From NCBI GenBank assembly GCA_024236215.1, contig JACKKX010000005.1, forward strand, positions 186,001 through 250,000: 64,000 nt of DNA, written 5' to 3'. Of the stretch, positions 25,161 through 40,007 are shown in pieces. Below the pieces are notes generated by a model. It saw only the letters and a list, made by a program, of their open reading frames with translations. It did no database searches and had not been told where the DNA came from. A program made the translations under genes and the position numbers. The DNA is from Novosphingobium sp. Its GTDB lineage: Bacteria; Pseudomonadota; Alphaproteobacteria; Sphingomonadales; Sphingomonadaceae. How positions within the stretch are numbered: the first letter of the stretch is position 1; the number at the start of each line of letters is the position of its first letter.

Positions 25161-26567
25161 ATGGCGCTCGATATCCTGATCGTCGATGACGAACGCGACA
25201 TTCGCGAACTCGTTGCCGGCGTGCTGAGCGATGAAGGTTACGAGTGTCGCACCGCTGGCGATAGCACCAGCGCGCTCGACATGATCGATCAGCGCCGACC
25301 CAGCCTGGTGCTGCTCGACGTCTGGCTGCACGGTAGCCCGATGGACGGGCTTGAAGTGCTCGACGCGATCAAGGCCCGCGAGCCCGAACTGCCGGTGATC
25401 ATCTTTTCCGGCCACGGCAATATCGACACCGCAGTATCCGCGATCGGGCGCGGGGCGATGGATTTCATCGAAAAGCCCTTCGAGGCCGAGCGTCTGCTGC
25501 TGCTGGTCGCGCGCGCTACCGAGACTGAGCGCCTGCGGCGCGAAAATGCGCGGCTGCGCGAAGGGTTCGTCACATCGGATGAATTCACGGGCAATTCCTC
25601 CGCAATCAACCAGGTCCGCGCCACGCTCAAGCGGGTTGCCAACACCGGCAGCCGTCTGCTGATTTCCGGTCCGGCCGGCGCCGGCAAGGAAGTCGCGGCG
25701 CGGCTGCTCCATTCGTGGAGCCCGCGTGCAGGGCATGCCTTTGTTACGGTCAATTCGGCCCGAATCACGCCGGAGCGCTTCGAGCAGGAATTGTTCGGCG
25801 AGGAGGCGGGCGGCAAGCTGGTGCGTGCCGGTCTGCTGGAAATGGCCGACGGGGGGACGCTCTATCTCGACGAAGTCGCCGACATGCCGCTTTCAACCCA
25901 GGCGCGCATCCTCAGGGTGCTGACCGAGCAGGCATTCGTGCGGGTCGGCGGGCATCGCCAGATTCGGGTGGACGTCAGGGTCGTTTCCTCCACGGCGCGG
26001 GATCTCGAGAAGGAAATCGCGGAGAAGAGGTTCCGCGAAGACCTGTTCTATCGCCTCAATGTGGTTCCGGTATCGATCCCCTCGCTGGCCGACCGGCGCG
26101 AGGATATCCCGATGCTGGTCGACCATTTCTTTGCCCGCTTCGCCGCCGATCAGGGTGTCCCTCCACCCGAGGTCAATACCGAGGCCATGGCATCGCTGCA
26201 AAGCTACGAATGGCCGGGCAATGTGCGCCAGCTGCGCAATGTGGTTGAGCGCACAATAATCCTCACACCTCGCGAACGCCTTTCGCGCATCGATGCCGAC
26301 ATGCTCCCGGCAGAGGTGGTTAGCGGACGCATCGCGGGGGACAACGGCATGCCCGCGCTGATGGGCGTACCGCTGCGCGAGGCCCGCGAAAGCTTTGAAC
26401 GCGAATACCTCAAGGTTCAGATCCGGCGCTTTTCCGGCAACATCTCGCGCACCGCCGCGTTCATCGGGATGGAGCGATCTGCATTGCACCGAAAGCTCAA
26501 GCTGCTCGGCATGGCCGAACGGCGCGAGGATGAGGAAGGCGAATTCGAAACTGCCGGCGATGAATGA
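25161..26567 (+). CDS. ntrX: nitrogen regulation response regulator NtrX
   Basis: The 468-residue regulator has a receiver domain (VLLDVWL, phospho-Asp), an AAA+ domain with Walker A GPAGAGKE and Walker B GGTLYLDEVAD, and a C-terminal Fis-type helix-turn-helix (TAAFIGMERSALHRKL). The loop that in NtrC reads GAFTGA is replaced by ELFGEEAGGKLVRAGLLE, so the sigma-54-contact motif is missing, as in other alphaproteobacterial NtrX. It probably works with sigma-70. RBS AAGGAAG precedes ATG 25161. It is the cognate partner of NtrY. Confidence 0.95.
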   Translation: MALDILIVDDERDIRELVAGVLSDEGYECRTAGDSTSALDMIDQRRPSLVLLDVWLHGSPMDGLEVLDAIKAREPELPVIIFSGHGNIDTAVSAIGRGAMDFIEKPFEAERLLLLVARATETERLRRENARLREGFVTSDEFTGNSSAINQVRATLKRVANTGSRLLISGPAGAGKEVAARLLHSWSPRAGHAFVTVNSARITPERFEQELFGEEAGGKLVRAGLLEMADGGTLYLDEVADMPLSTQARILRVLTEQAFVRVGGHRQIRVDVRVVSSTARDLEKEIAEKRFREDLFYRLNVVPVSIPSLADRREDIPMLVDHFFARFAADQGVPPPEVNTEAMASLQSYEWPGNVRQLRNVVERTIILTPRERLSRIDADMLPAEVVSGRIAGDNGMPALMGVPLREARESFEREYLKVQIRRFSGNISRTAAFIGMERSALHRKLKLLGMAERREDEEGEFETAGDE

Positions 26568-26629: not shown

Positions 26630-26701
26630 TCCGGTTCGGCCACGCAGGGCCAGCCAGATCGCGGACCGCACAAGCGGCCGCCAACAAGAAGGAGAAGCAG
26701 A

Positions 26702-27286
26702 ATGTCGACGTCTGGCTCGCGCACATTAAGCGCCCGTCCGCGTCCGCCCAAGCCCGAATCCGAAGCGGCCGAGGCTCCTCTGGTCCCCGAAGCCGGGGCG
26801 AAGGGCCAGAACCTTCAGGATCAGTTTCTCAATCTGCTCCGCCGCACCAAGACCCCGGTGACCATGTTCCTGGTCAAGGGCGTCAAGTTGCAGGGTATCG
26901 TCACCTGGTTTGACAACTTCTCGATCCTGCTGCGCCGCGATGGGCAGTCGCAGCTGGTCTACAAACATGCGATTTCGACGATCATGCCCAGCGTGCCGGT
27001 CGATGCGCGCCAGTTCGGCAGCGCCGAAGGCGGCAAGAAGGTGCGTCTGCTGCAGGATGTGTTCCTCTCGAGCGTGCGCAAGGCCGAAGCGCAGGTCACC
27101 ATGTTCCTGGTCAACGGGGTGATGTTGCAGGGCCGGGTTGCCGCCTATGACCTGTTCTGCATGATGCTCGAACGCGAAGGCTATGTGCAGCTTGCCTACA
27201 AGCACGCGGTCTCGACCATCCAGCCGGTTACCCCGGTCGATCTCACCGGCGAGGATATGGATGGCGAGGGTGAGGAGCCGGCCTGA
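26702..27286 (+). CDS. hfq: RNA chaperone Hfq with two tandem Sm domains
   Basis: Hfq is a hexameric RNA chaperone promoting sRNA-mRNA pairing. This 194-residue chain has two complete Sm domains, each with the Hfq KH motif: domain 1 about residues 35-100 ([21 protein letters not shown]) and domain 2 about residues 112-180 ([22 protein letters not shown]). A basic Pro-rich N-tail (residues 1-33) and an acidic C-tail flank them. Domain 2 lacks the Lys of KLQG (distal face) and has a weakened rim (VRKAEA instead of LRRTK). ATG 26702 follows AAGGAGAAG. A ring of three chains would give six Sm folds, which is inference. hflX follows at once. Confidence 0.97.
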
Positions 27287-27333: not shown

Positions 27334-28614
27334 GTGATCGCTTACCCCGAATTCCGGGGCAGGGGGGCGGGAGATATCGATACCGCCGCGCGGATCGAGG
27401 AAGCGCGCGGTCTTGCCCTGGCGATTGGGCTGGAGGTGGTCGATGCGCTCGCGATTCCGATTCGCGAGGCACGCGCCGCGACGCTGTTCGGCGAAGGCCA
27501 GATCCAGAATATCGCCTTGGCCTGCAATCAGGGCGATGCCGAACTGGTGATCGTCGATGGCTCGCTCAGCGCGATCCAGCAGCGCAACCTTGAGGAAAAG
27601 CTCGCCCGCAAGGTGATCGACCGAACCGGGCTGATCCTCGAAATCTTCGGCGAACGCGCGGCCACTGCCGAGGGGCGCCTGCAAGTGGAACTGGCGCATC
27701 TCGACTATCAGGCCGGGCGTCTGGTGCGCAGCTGGACCCACCTTGAGCGCCAGCGCGGGGGCTTCGGATTCCTCGGCGGGCCAGGCGAAACACAGATCGA
27801 AGCCGACCGGCGGATGATCCGCGATCGGATGGCCCGCTTGCGCCGCGAACTCGATCAGGTGCGCCGCACCCGGGGCCTACACCGCAGCCGCCGCGAAAAG
27901 GCACCCTGGTCGGTGATTGCGCTGGTCGGCTATACCAATGCCGGCAAGTCGACCCTGTTCAACCGGCTAACCGGGGCAGGGGTGATGGCCGAGGACCTGC
28001 TGTTCGCCACGCTCGATCCGACCATGCGCCGGATTCGTCTGCCCGGGCTCGACAAGGCCATTCTTTCCGACACGGTGGGTTTTATTTCCGATCTGCCGAC
28101 CCAGCTGGTCGCCGCCTTCCGCGCCACTCTGGAAGAGGTGACCGCCGCCGATCTGATCGTCCACGTACGGGATGTGGCCAATCCCGAAAGCTCGGCACAA
28201 AAGCGCCAGGTTCTGGGCGTGCTGGCCGATCTCGGACTGACCGAGGCTGACGGCGAAGTCCCGCGTGTGCCGATCATCGAAGCCTGGAACAAGTGGGACC
28301 TGCTCAGCCCCGAACGCGCCGAGGAACTGGCCGAACAGGTCGCCGCGCGCAGTGAGGAAGTGATCGTGCCGGTTTCCGCCGTCACCGGCTTCGGCTGCGA
28401 CGCGCTGCTCGAAGCGGTCAGCAAGCTGCTCACCGCCGGGGCGAGGGTTCACGCTTTCGTCCTCCCGGTCAGCGATGGCCAACGTCTCGCCTGGCTTCAC
28501 GCCCACGGCGAAGTTCTGGCCGATGAAGAATCCGGCGAAGACGAACGCGGTCCCTTGCGCCGCCTCGAAGTGCGGCTGGATCCGCGCGAACTGGGCCGGT
28601 TCATGCGGGTTTGA
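27334..28614 (+). CDS. hflX: GTPase HflX
   Basis: HflX is a ribosome-associated GTPase that rescues or splits stalled ribosomes. It shows the N-terminal HflX domain (ATLFGEGQIQNI), the linker motif GGFGFLGGPGETQIE, the G1 P-loop GYTNAGKST (residues about 206-214) and G3 DTVGF. The first standard start is GTG 27334 (426 aa), but the frame is open upstream and EEVTRGARA before it looks like the family's N-terminus. CTG 27283, overlapping the hfq stop as CTGA, is a strong alternative adding 17 residues. hfq-hflX linkage is classic. Confidence 0.94.
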   Translation: MIAYPEFRGRGAGDIDTAARIEEARGLALAIGLEVVDALAIPIREARAATLFGEGQIQNIALACNQGDAELVIVDGSLSAIQQRNLEEKLARKVIDRTGLILEIFGERAATAEGRLQVELAHLDYQAGRLVRSWTHLERQRGGFGFLGGPGETQIEADRRMIRDRMARLRRELDQVRRTRGLHRSRREKAPWSVIALVGYTNAGKSTLFNRLTGAGVMAEDLLFATLDPTMRRIRLPGLDKAILSDTVGFISDLPTQLVAAFRATLEEVTAADLIVHVRDVANPESSAQKRQVLGVLADLGLTEADGEVPRVPIIEAWNKWDLLSPERAEELAEQVAARSEEVIVPVSAVTGFGCDALLEAVSKLLTAGARVHAFVLPVSDGQRLAWLHAHGEVLADEESGEDERGPLRRLEVRLDPRELGRFMRV

Positions 28615-28624
28615 GCTGGGACAA

Positions 28625-29227
28625 TCAGGCGGGAAGGGCGGCGATCAGATCGTCGAAAACCGCGAGGCCAGGATACCGATTCAATTCGTGCATGGTGGGA
28701 AGTTCATCCGGAAAACCGAACTGCACGCGGTCGGGCAGCACTTTGTCCAGCACTTCGTACCATTTCAGAAGGGCGGGTTGTAGCCGCACATGCAGGTCGA
28801 GTTTCTGGCGGCGGCGGGTCATATCGACCCGGGCCTGCGCGCGCGCCAGATCGGGATCGATGGTCTTGACGAAGTAGGCGTCCGCAAACCCGATTTTGCG
28901 CCCTTCAATCGTCGCTCTCACTGCCTGGACGGACAATTGCCATTGCTGTTCCGTCACTTCGCCAATTTGCCAGAGGCACCAGGTGTAATGCAGCTTGAGC
29001 GGGTCGGTATCGCACAGGGCAAGGCCGGTGCGCTGTTCCATGGCGAGGGCCGTCTGCCAGCGCAAAACATTGCGTCCCGCCCAATATGCCGCGGCGCCTT
29101 GCGGATCGCTTTGCTCGCAAGGCACGTTTTGGACCGGGCCAGTTTCGGGGATTGTATGGTCGGCACCATGGGCATTGCACCAGGTGCTTTTGCCCGATGC
29201 GCTGATCCCTTCGATAACGACGATCAC
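28625..29227 (-). CDS. P-loop kinase-like protein coupled to mazG
   Basis: The 200-residue protein starts with a Walker A, GISASGKST (residues 7-15), and resembles small nucleoside/thymidylate-kinase-like or AAA ATPases in size and position of the P-loop. A DTD motif (LALCDTDPLKLHY) and Arg-rich lid-like stretch (ARVDMTRRRQKLD) fit a phosphotransferase. I cannot name the substrate. GTG 29227 is chosen since it overlaps the mazG stop as GTGA, so the two are translationally coupled. A nucleotide-pool role is a guess from mazG linkage. Confidence 0.75.
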   Translation of the reverse strand: MIVVIEGISASGKSTWCNAHGADHTIPETGPVQNVPCEQSDPQGAAAYWAGRNVLRWQTALAMEQRTGLALCDTDPLKLHYTWCLWQIGEVTEQQWQLSVQAVRATIEGRKIGFADAYFVKTIDPDLARAQARVDMTRRRQKLDLHVRLQPALLKWYEVLDKVLPDRVQFGFPDELPTMHELNRYPGLAVFDDLIAALPA

Positions 29228-30006
29228 TTTTCCGACGCCTTGATAGCAACCCACAGCCTCTCCTGCTGGTCGAGCGGCAATGCGGCAAACACCTGACTGC
29301 GCGCCTCGGCCAGGGCTTCCATCCCCCGGAAGCGGCGCTCGAACTTGGTATTGGCGGCGCGCAGGGCCTCTTCCGGGGCGACGCCGTAGGCGCGCACCAA
29401 ATTGACGGCGGCGAACAGCAGGTCTCCGGCCTCTTCGGCGCGTTCCATTTCTGTTCCGGCCTCGGCCAGTTCGGCGATCTCCTCGATCACCTTGGCCCTG
29501 GGGCCCTCGGTATCGCCCCAGTCAAACCCCTGGCGCGCCGCGCGCTTTTGCAGCTTTTCGGCACGGAGAAGCGCGGGGAGGGCGAGGGCGACCCCGTCCA
29601 TCGCGCTGGTTGAACCCTTGGCGCTGCGTTCTTCGGCCTTGAGGCTCTCCCAGCGGTCTTCGCGCGATTGGCCGCGATCGGGCGCAGAGCCGAAGATGTG
29701 CGGATGCCGGGCTTCCATCTTGGTCGAGATCGCTTCGGCGACGTCCGCGAAATCGAACAATCCGGCTTCCTCTGCCATGCGGGCGTGAAACACCACCTGG
29801 AGCAGCAGATCGCCAAGCTCGTCCTTGAGCGCCGCCGTATCATCCCGGGCAATGGCATCCGCTACTTCGTAGGCTTCCTCGATCGTATAGGGCACGATCG
29901 TTGCGAAGTTCTGCGCCAGATCCCATTCGCATCCACGCTGCGGATCGCGCAAGCGGGCCATGATCGCGAGGAGGCGCTGGAGGGAGGCGGTGGCTGGTTC
30001 GGACAT
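29224..30006 (-). CDS. mazG: nucleoside triphosphate pyrophosphohydrolase MazG
   Basis: MazG hydrolyses (d)NTPs to NMP and PPi. The 260-residue protein has two MazG domains, each with the EExxE/ExxD Mg-binding helices: IEEAYEVADAI with ELGDLLLQVVFHARMAEE in the first, and IEEIAELAEAG with EEAGDLLFAAVNLVRA in the second. ATG 30006 lies inside the 5-bp target duplication of the adjacent insertion sequence, so its native promoter and ribosome site have been displaced. The reading frame is intact. It ends in a GTGA overlap with the P-loop kinase gene. Confidence 0.95.
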   Translation of the reverse strand: MSEPATASLQRLLAIMARLRDPQRGCEWDLAQNFATIVPYTIEEAYEVADAIARDDTAALKDELGDLLLQVVFHARMAEEAGLFDFADVAEAISTKMEARHPHIFGSAPDRGQSREDRWESLKAEERSAKGSTSAMDGVALALPALLRAEKLQKRAARQGFDWGDTEGPRAKVIEEIAELAEAGTEMERAEEAGDLLFAAVNLVRAYGVAPEEALRAANTKFERRFRGMEALAEARSQVFAALPLDQQERLWVAIKASEK

Positions 30007-30007
30007 A
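30003..30007. repeat. 5-bp target site duplication (left copy)
   Basis: ACATA here is repeated at 31681-31685, directly flanking the TGT...ACA ends of the insertion sequence. It contains the complement of the mazG ATG. Confidence 0.7.
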
Positions 30008-30058
30008 TGTTTCTGCTGTTTAGAGAAGACACTATTTCCGCCAAGTAGAGATGTCACC
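30008..30058. repeat. IS left terminal inverted repeat region
   Basis: It starts TGT and holds TTTAGA (30019-30024) and two degenerate TAGA-ATG-CACC motifs (30021-30033, 30046-30058), matching the right end in reverse complement at equal spacing with several mismatches. Confidence 0.65.
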
Positions 30059-30173
30059 GTTTGATGCAGCAGGGGCTGTGCGGAACCCTTCGGTCTTGTG
30101 CAGCGCAGCCCCTGCTGGTGCGCTGGTCTCTCAGTAGTGGAGCCCCGGACCCGCTGCTTTGCAGTGGGCTCCC

Positions 30174-31568
30174 TCACAGGGGCTCGAGCATGCGCTGCGC
30201 TGCTTCAATCGGGCTTAGACGGGGAAGGGGAGGACGGCCCCGCTTGCGTTTGACCGGTGCGCCTTCCTGCGGCTGCGGGGGAGGGAACAGGTGGGCGCCC
30301 TGCGATCTTCGGCACGGCTCGTTGTTGTTGCGCTTCCTCGGTGGCAACATCTCTTGCATCGCCTTGGCCATGGCCAGCGCCGCATCGAGATGCTTGTTTT
30401 CAACGATCGCCGCCTGGTTCACCTGCCGGATCTTGTCGAACACCCGGTAGGGCAGGATGTGTTCTTCGTGCCGGATCTCGAGCCGGCCGTCAGGATACTC
30501 GCAGACGTCGACCCGCTTGCCCGCCAGCGGCCGGCTGATCTCGGTTGGTTCAAGGATGATGAGCGCCTTGTTGTAATGCAGCGTCAGCGCCTGCGTCACC
30601 GTGCGCTGTTCGCGCCAGACCATCTCGGCCTTGAGATCATCGTGCGGGGCCAAGGGGCGATGCACATCGCGCGGATCGAACGGCGCCTTGGCGAACCGCT
30701 GGTTGTGGCGTGCCATGTAGCCCGGCAGGAACGCGTTGGCCTCGGCAATGGTCGAGATGCCTTCAAGCCGCATCGCCTTGACCAGCCGGTCCTGCAACGT
30801 CCCGTTGGCGCGCTCGACCCGACCCTTGGCCTGCGGCGAGTTGGCACAGATGATTTCGATGTTCAGCGTCTCGAGCGCCCGACCGAAGTGGGTCATGCCG
30901 TCGCCTTTGGCCGAGGCGGTGTTGTTGCGGAACACGCCGTGTTTGTCGGAATAGATCGCCACCGGCTTGCCGTGTGCCTCGATGTAGGCGGTCATCGCAT
31001 CCATGTAGGCGAAGGTGTTCTCGCTCTCGACCATCCTGAGGTGCATCAGCTCGCTGGTTGCATCGTCGATGAACACCAGCAGCGTGCACTGCGGCCCGCG
31101 ATCCTCGAACCACCAGTGCTTCGAGCCGTCGACCTGGACCAGCTCGCCGCGGCAGTCGCGGCGGTAACGCGGCTGATAGGGTCGCGGGCGACGAGCATCG
31201 CGGTCCTTCCACAGACCTGCCTGGATCATCAGCTGGCGCAGCGTCTCGCAACCAACAGTGATCCCGTGTCGTTCGATCAGATACTCGCGCGCCAGAGTCG
31301 GGCCGAAGTCGTGATAATGCTCGCGAACGAGGCCGACGATCTGCTCGCGAAGCGCATCGCTGTGCCGCCGGTTGCTTGGTCGACCTCGTTTGCGGGAGAT
31401 GAGGCCTGCAGCACCTTCGGTCCGCAGCCGGTCCAGCAGCCGGAAAACCTGACGGCGCTTCAATCCAAGCAACGCGGCCGCATCTTCAACCCGCAGTTCG
31501 CCGCGCTCAACCCGCATCAGCGTATCAAATCGCGAAAGTTCCCCATGGCTCATCGCCAGCACCGTCAT
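30174..31568 (-). CDS. ISNCY-type DDE transposase
   Basis: The 464-residue protein has an N-terminal helix-turn-helix (DAAALLGLKRRQVFRLLDRL), then GLISRKRGRPSN, typical of ISNCY/IS1202-like transposases. The rve-fold catalytic core follows: first Asp in VQVDGSKHWWFEDRG, second in IYSDKHGVF, and Glu in KGRVERANGTLQDRL. The C-terminus is rich in Lys, Arg and Pro. ATG 31568 is chosen as the first ATG before MSHGELSRF; an upstream in-frame codon at 31589 adds only seven residues. It is transcribed toward mazG, so IS transcription may read into it. Confidence 0.88.
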   Translation of the reverse strand: MTVLAMSHGELSRFDTLMRVERGELRVEDAAALLGLKRRQVFRLLDRLRTEGAAGLISRKRGRPSNRRHSDALREQIVGLVREHYHDFGPTLAREYLIERHGITVGCETLRQLMIQAGLWKDRDARRPRPYQPRYRRDCRGELVQVDGSKHWWFEDRGPQCTLLVFIDDATSELMHLRMVESENTFAYMDAMTAYIEAHGKPVAIYSDKHGVFRNNTASAKGDGMTHFGRALETLNIEIICANSPQAKGRVERANGTLQDRLVKAMRLEGISTIAEANAFLPGYMARHNQRFAKAPFDPRDVHRPLAPHDDLKAEMVWREQRTVTQALTLHYNKALIILEPTEISRPLAGKRVDVCEYPDGRLEIRHEEHILPYRVFDKIRQVNQAAIVENKHLDAALAMAKAMQEMLPPRKRNNNEPCRRSQGAHLFPPPQPQEGAPVKRKRGRPPLPRLSPIEAAQRMLEPL

Positions 31569-31630
31569 AAGCGCGCCCTCCCGACCCACAGGAGAGCCAT
31601 GCCACCGTTGTTCCGCTGACGACGCCCGGG

Positions 31631-39917: not shown

Positions 39918-40007
39918 GGACAGGTGGCCGAGTGGTTTAAGGCAGCGGTCTTGAAAACCGCCGTGGGTGCAAGCTCACCGTGGGTTCGAATCCCACCCTG
40001 TCCGCCA
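39918..40007 (+). tRNA. tRNA-Ser (UGA anticodon)
   Basis: The 90-nt tRNA with encoded CCA has the acceptor stem GGACAGG/CCTGTCC, the class II long variable arm (GTGGGTGCAAGCTCAC) and the T arm GTGGGTTCGAATCCCAC. The anticodon stem GCGGT/ACCGC closes the loop CTTGAAA, giving anticodon UGA, which reads UCA and related Ser codons. It is intact. Confidence 0.97.

Follow-up and report, generated by a model that had tools for sequence, protein, structure and literature searches.

Fixed residue differences between the two Sm domains of a tandem Hfq in Novosphingobium and its relatives

The only Hfq encoded by the Novosphingobium genome studied here is a single chain with two complete Sm domains, D1 and D2, and these two domains differ, across 178 related loci, at residues involved in RNA contact that are fixed in one domain or the other. 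Our best reading is that three such chains probably form a pseudo-hexamer in which D1 and D2 alternate, with full lateral rims on D1 and acidic tails that could gate the D1 rims; from the residue patterns we infer the stoichiometry of the ring, the alternation, the docking of the tails and the effect on RNA. The tandem architecture itself is not new, being the subject of the NCBIfam model NF010691 and of a published description (PMC2877685), and the gene in the window (the whole 64,000-nucleotide stretch of DNA that was analysed) is an ordinary member of a real, old and family-wide architecture already in print. Among the matches listed in a search of the open-access literature, with most subscription journals outside its scope, no description of the fixed residue division between D1 and D2 was found, nor any structure or domain-by-domain study of a tandem Hfq.

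The gene reads in one frame from an ATG at 26702 to a stop at 27286 on the forward strand, encoding 194 amino acids (Table 1). The product scored 185 bits against the Pfam Hfq model PF17209 (cut-off 27), over two stretches, 174.8 bits against TIGR02383 (cut-off 61.7), and 294.3 bits (curated cut-off 270; E 2.3e-88) against NF010691 (PRK14091), a 176-position Hfq model covering both domains, which was matched from position 10 to 173 by residues 25-187. A six-frame search of the 3.08-Mb genome returned the D1 and D2 segments with 104.9 and 84.6 bits, respectively, and no third Hfq match. The protein is thus the cell's sole Hfq, and since only D1 and D2 match Hfq in the genome, there is no ordinary Hfq chain to complete a ring. 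A separate Hfq gene serving that purpose was likewise rejected for other genomes, because all 32 tandem genomes given to PF17209 had exactly two matches, both in one open frame. A frame error or a pair of overlapping genes is ruled out, as a single frame spans both domains in all 188 tandem loci read, of which the window is one.

Table 1. Features of the tandem hfq locus, in window coordinates (residue positions 28, 31 and 41 follow E. coli numbering).
Feature	Positions	Strand	Basis
ntrX-like sigma-54 response regulator gene, upstream of hfq	25161..26567	+	Pfam
Likely ribosome-binding site AAGGAG upstream of the hfq ATG	26689..26694	+	read in sequence only
hfq, tandem Hfq, 194 aa	26702..27286	+	single open frame; Pfam and NCBIfam NF010691/PRK14091 matches; genome search
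N-terminal extension, predicted disordered, with motif RTLSARPRP (residues 7-15)	26702..26812	+	pLDDT below 50 for most of the first 32 residues
D1, the N-terminal Sm domain, with Lys at 28 and 31 and with lateral rim site, distal residues and proximal pocket all preserved	26813..27001	+	Pfam, alignment, AlphaFold2
D1 distal loop KGVK: Lys59 and Lys62 are positions 28 and 31	26876..26887	+	residue alignment
Region separating the two Pfam matches (the measured linker, 20 residues in the window, starts slightly earlier)	27002..27049	+	
D2, the C-terminal Sm domain, with distal core and proximal pocket preserved; Met31, Leu41, rim altered	27050..27238	+	Pfam, alignment, AlphaFold2
D2 distal loop NGVM: Asn138 and Met141 are positions 28 and 31	27113..27124	+	residue alignment
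Acidic C-terminal tail, 15 residues	27239..27283	+	acidity conserved across core tandem loci
hflX GTPase gene, downstream of hfq	27334..28614	+	Pfam

Structure prediction with AlphaFold2, using 77 tandem sequences as input, gave a best model with a complete Sm fold in each half (mean pLDDT 83.4, pTM 0.73), each fold consisting of an alpha helix and five strands with block pLDDT values of about 95-98, while the linker blocks, at 80 and 74, lay below the domains. Four of the five models reached a mean pLDDT of 81-83 and one failed (47.0). An earlier note, drawn from the letters of the window, had proposed that one chain carries two complete Sm domains of the Hfq type, and this is borne out by the two PF17209 stretches and by the confident folding of both halves in the best model; the limits it gave (residues 35-100 and 112-180) are correct to within a few residues, and its motifs YKHAIST (87-93), YKHAVST (166-172) and VMLQG (in D2, against VKLQG in D1) are present. 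A pTM of 0.73 with 140 of the 194 residues at a pLDDT of at least 70 is about what would be expected if D1 and D2 were placed relative to each other, a placement that may be driven by AlphaFold2's memory of Hfq rings. In the N-terminal extension, T8, L9 and R12 are at least 90% conserved among the 77 aligned sequences; the strict pattern of its motif occurs in the window, in 22 of 80 named loci and in 10 of 97 other tandem loci, and in none of the 10 decayed tandem loci described below or the 31 single-domain proteins.

For the comparison of the two domains, in E. coli numbering, the core set comprised 178 tandem loci including the window (153 distinct two-domain core sequences), set against 31 intact single-domain proteins (29 distinct sequences). 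Ten decayed loci of the genus g13 (L166-L175) were counted apart, two contig-edge fragments (L176 and L177) were left out of the counts, and one single-domain protein whose frame runs on (L049) was omitted from the single-tail statistics. The 188 tandem loci are an uneven sample: L003-L032 were the matches with the highest scores, L063-L142 are the nearest named relatives, the window itself recurs as L001 and L002, and some genomes appear as both named and unnamed records. Among 43 core positions conserved at 90% or more in the single-domain proteins, both domains retain 27, six have acquired a different majority residue in D2 alone, seven vary in D2 only, two vary in both, and a single one, position 28, is replaced in D1 only. 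Positions 28 and 31 are Asn and Lys in all 31 single-domain proteins; in the core set they are Lys and Lys in D1 and Asn and Met in D2, in 178/178 loci and 153/153 distinct sequences. Position 28 of D2 thus carries the residue of the single-domain proteins, as does position 31 of D1. Since Lys28 was gained in D1 and Lys31 lost in D2, each D1/D2 pair keeps two distal-loop lysines, both on D1. The earlier claim that the second domain had lost the lysine of its distal motif therefore holds for Lys31 itself, but the distal lysine has not simply been lost, given the gain of Lys28 in every core D1. Such invariance at positions 28 and 31 leaves no covariation signal able to prove a contact between D1 and D2.

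The pockets that bind RNA are kept in both domains. The proximal uridine pocket (positions 8, 42, 55, 56 and 57, namely Gln8, Phe42 and Tyr55-Lys56-His57) is intact in 178/178 D1 and 178/178 D2 domains, window included, and the distal A/R-site residues (25, 26, 29, 30, 32, 33, 52 and 61) are intact in 176/178 D1 and 177/178 D2 domains. Position 41, Asn or Gln, is kept in 162/178 D1 and 12/178 D2 domains, being mostly Leu in D2. For P. aeruginosa Hfq, it has been described that residue 31 contacts the A site through its backbone amide and that the distal R site is built from two neighbouring monomers (PMC6422490). Because the contact of Lys31 is of this backbone kind and nearly all D2 domains have the remaining distal residues intact, the A-rich site of D2 need not be dead, and Met31 in D2 need not kill the distal pocket as judged from the residues present. 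In E. coli, a preprint reports that RIL-seq chimeras fell almost fourfold in the K31A mutant and were nearly abolished in R16A, that R16A kept partial regulatory function, and that RpoS levels were similar and intermediate in R16A, Y25D and K31A (PMC12262471). The sites on the rim of the ring are divided between the domains. The lateral site formed by residues 13, 16, 17 and 39, a uridine-binding rim pocket in published structures (PMC5379935, PMC4337610), is complete in 178/178 D1 vs 20/178 D2 domains. Position 19 is basic in 178/178 D1 vs 12/178 D2 domains, and an extra rim Arg of Alphaproteobacteria is present in 178/178 vs 4/178, Asp or Glu being found there in 159 D2 domains.

The division of the rim is nevertheless one of degree in D2, where position 16 is basic in 139/178 domains, positions 16 and 17 are both basic in 33/178, and 176/178 have Phe or Tyr at position 39. 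A relaxed rule for the lateral site (Asn, Ser or Thr at 13, basic residues at 16 and 17, Phe or Tyr at 39) fits 32/178 D2 domains, that of the window among them with Ser13, Arg16, Lys17 and Tyr39. There, Arg16 and Lys17 are kept, Lys19 and the extra rim Arg have both given way to Glu, Asn13 to Ser and Phe39 to Tyr. Over five rim sites the net charge is +5 in every core D1, +0.5 on average in D2 and +1 in the D2 of the window. The suggestion of a weaker basic rim in D2 is supported across the family, the rim of the window's D2 being altered and not absent. A basic lateral rim on each subunit is usual in the Hfq family, if not universal. From 5000 sampled pairs, D2 was estimated to diverge 2.05 times as fast as D1, and judging from this rate the changes in D2 could be mere relaxation. 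One step further, D2 might serve mainly as structural filler, its RNA sites decaying, and leave D1 to carry most of the function of an alternating ring. The roughly doubled divergence would agree with that, as would the lack of the complete lateral site in 158/178 D2 domains and of Lys31 in all of them, and the far-gone decay of D2 in ten g13 loci; however, a proximal pocket intact in every core D2 and a distal core intact in all but one argue for selection on RNA contact, and position 16 is still mostly basic, so that we regard the filler explanation as quite unlikely.

The ten decayed loci are part of 27 g13 loci, the remaining 17 fetched ones being less altered. They keep two domains, with strong decay in both: the full proximal pocket is found in 5/10 D1 and 2/10 D2 domains, D1 position 31 is Arg in 10/10 and D2 position 31 is variable, and Lys28 of D1 is kept in 10/10. 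Their tails are 1-5 residues long with no acidic end, and their linker is shorter. From these sequences, the decayed g13 Hfq looks like a protein under relaxed or changed selection, and its loss of the tail and of many conserved sites in both domains counts against a simple form of the alternating-ring account.

Linker and tail also differ. In the 178 core loci, the linker has 18-24 residues and a median net charge of +1 (range -4 to +2), and in none of them does it carry three acidic residues among its last eight. The tail behind D2 has a median net charge of -6, with at least three Asp or Glu among the last eight residues in 175/178 core loci; at least three acidic residues in the last eight are likewise found in 28/30 single-domain proteins. 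In Caulobacter Hfq, the acidic tip is described as packing against the basic rim of the neighbouring protomer, an arrangement that the authors interpreted as autoinhibition (PMC6561178). As the tail follows D2 alone, and a D2 in the alternating ring would be flanked on either side by D1, with its full rim, there would be three gates for three full rims.

Taken as a mechanism, three tandem chains would close into a six-domain ring with D1 and D2 alternating, and all six positions would keep the proximal uridine pocket together with the backbone-driven distal A and R pockets. The lateral rim used for annealing would be full at the three D1 positions and weaker at the three of D2, the distal lysines would be gathered on D1, two at a time, instead of one per subunit, and each tail could gate one D1 rim; we predict that three full rims suffice for a ring. 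A stronger version, which we hold only tentatively and consider doubtful, is that of strictly alternating annealing-active D1 and annealing-poor D2 positions, with the distal lysines shifted across the subunit boundary onto D1 and each tail gating exactly one D1 rim in trans; it is rated lower because a basic residue is so often kept at position 16 of D2. It could also be that six chains form one hexamer of D1 and one of D2, stacked or joined by the linkers. The linker could by our estimate span stacked rings, stacking of Hfq rings is known from crystals (PMC5379935), and D1 retains the ancestral residues that a ring of D1 alone would require. However, a ring of D2 alone would lack lysine at both 28 and 31 and would be weak at its rim, even though D2 has kept its proximal pocket and, with one exception, its distal residues, and the pTM of the AlphaFold2 model fits a defined placement of D1 and D2, without saying which, so that separate rings of each domain seem unlikely to us.

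A two-domain Hfq has a precedent in print. Yang et al. (2010; PMC2877685) described two Sm-like domains in ZMO0347 of Z. mobilis and in six other species of Sphingomonadales, reported stress phenotypes for the Zymomonas hfq mutant, and proposed structural work on whether only three chains form a ring; the earlier note's mention of tandem Hfq proteins from sphingomonads is thereby traced to a source that already raises the three-chain question. ZMO0347, likened to the window's Hfq here through its published description, shares with it and with PRK14091/NF010691 (over whose cut-off the window's protein scores) two Sm domains per chain in Sphingomonadales; no architectural difference is known, and the residue-level division between D1 and D2 is absent from the portions of PMC2877685 drawn on here. 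N. aromaticivorans has been counted among species with two hfq-like copies (PMC3474761). The closest solved structure is that of Caulobacter crescentus Hfq (PDB 6gwk), both by sequence (E 2.7e-31) and by fold, being the best of the Foldseek matches listed; among the best 50 of 1131 matches none was long enough for both domains. It resembles D1 in its rim residues and has a short acidic tail, but it has one domain per chain, the rim and tail on every subunit, and Asn28 with Lys31. E. coli Hfq shares the Sm core, the YKH motif, Gln8, Gln33, Gln52 and Thr61, and differs in having one domain per chain, with a core identity of 60% to the window's D1 and 43% to its D2. Eukaryotic Sm and Lsm rings are heteromeric and made of non-identical Sm domains. 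The likeness is one of analogy, with no direct relationship claimed, and those rings are built from seven separate gene products and not from a fused repeat.

Among the genomes sampled, matches over the cut-off of NF010691 are confined to one family. Among 396 genomes of the order (313 in the window's family, f1, and 83 elsewhere), 390 matched NF010691 and 265 exceeded its cut-off, all of the latter in f1 since the best match outside it (E 4.8e-44) was far below the cut-off. Within 385 genomes of the class only five passed, all from f1, and the same five alone passed among 150 genomes of the phylum, many of which recur from the class set; the model is tuned to the sphingomonad form and might, at this cut-off, miss a tandem Hfq that arose independently. 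PF17209, applied to 65 genomes, found one domain in 13 and two in 32 of 45 f1 genomes (mostly low scorers), the 13 being spread over seven genera, and one domain in 18 of 20 genomes from other families, with none in G092 and two on different contigs in G001. Two sub-threshold matches were seen in a few genomes outside f1, on different contigs in G001 and G796, and also in G454, G701 and G761; G001 has a full single-domain hfq (L059) and a 51-residue fragment at a contig edge (L177), which may be a second copy or contamination. The nearest named relatives of the window are Novosphingobium records (best segment 86%), and Zymomonas forms a family of its own in the NCBI taxonomy. The spread of the two-domain form also bears on whether six chains might form a ring by way of D1, leaving D2 outside it, or whether the chain might be cleaved between its domains. 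The lower pLDDT of the linker blocks would be in line with either, but an architecture that passes the family cut-off in 265 of the 396 genomes sampled from the order, and a D2 that keeps its full fold in the AlphaFold2 model, make both very improbable.

In a tree of the NtrX and HflX flanks from 49 chosen loci (29 of the 188 tandem and 20 single-domain), rooted on one locus and not on the whole outgroup, the tandem loci formed one clade with an ultrafast bootstrap of 100, and single-domain f1 loci were the nearest branches outside it. A FastTree of 219 loci, again not rooted on the whole outgroup, grouped all 188 tandem loci with a weak support of 0.54. With the NF010691 cut-off passed in one family only and the tandem loci being one clade among single-domain relatives, the simplest account from these sequences would be one duplication after the split from the single-domain lineages, with no loss in the sample. 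An origin of the single-domain relatives through loss of D2 is unsupported in the sample, as 31/31 have Asn28 and Lys31, none of the 31 has the derived Lys28, and the tandem loci form one clade. A recent duplication at the DNA level was also rejected, no direct repeats of at least 12 bases being found in the gene (9-base seeds); D1 and D2 of the window are 56% identical over the core, for which reason the duplication looks old. Of 221 loci whose neighbourhood was compared, the window and the two contig-edge fragments included, 199 had an NtrX match and 217 an HflX match. Wide sharing of the NtrX side is not supported by the 22 loci without NtrX, 17 of which are single-domain loci from other families of the order. 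One single-domain locus, L049 of G339, had no HflX match near hfq, and its frame extends well past the acidic stretch. Scans for promoters and terminators near hfq found none. Elsewhere in the window, a tRNA gene at 39918-40004 (+) gave the single Rfam match above the gathering score, and an ORF at 30177-31589 (-) adjoining mazG reads like a transposase, Pfam giving only helix-turn-helix matches for it; the longest mazG ORF (29224-30177, -) begins at the end of that ORF, and its true start may be further in.

What the tandem Hfq offers concerns a question that identical subunits make hard to ask, namely what number of functional rims, tails and distal sites, out of six of each, an Hfq ring requires. 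If the ring alternates, the rim is weakened on half of the positions with the pockets kept on all, and point mutations can be confined to every other subunit, so that the fixed difference between D1 and D2 amounts to a natural test of the number of working sites an Hfq ring needs. If the stronger, strictly alternating version were true, this would be a bacterial Sm ring with a built-in, ordered asymmetry and one full RNA-exchange site per two binding pockets. Since the tandem form occurs in Zymomonas, as described in PMC2877685, and in named Novosphingobium genomes, laboratory hosts for such work exist.
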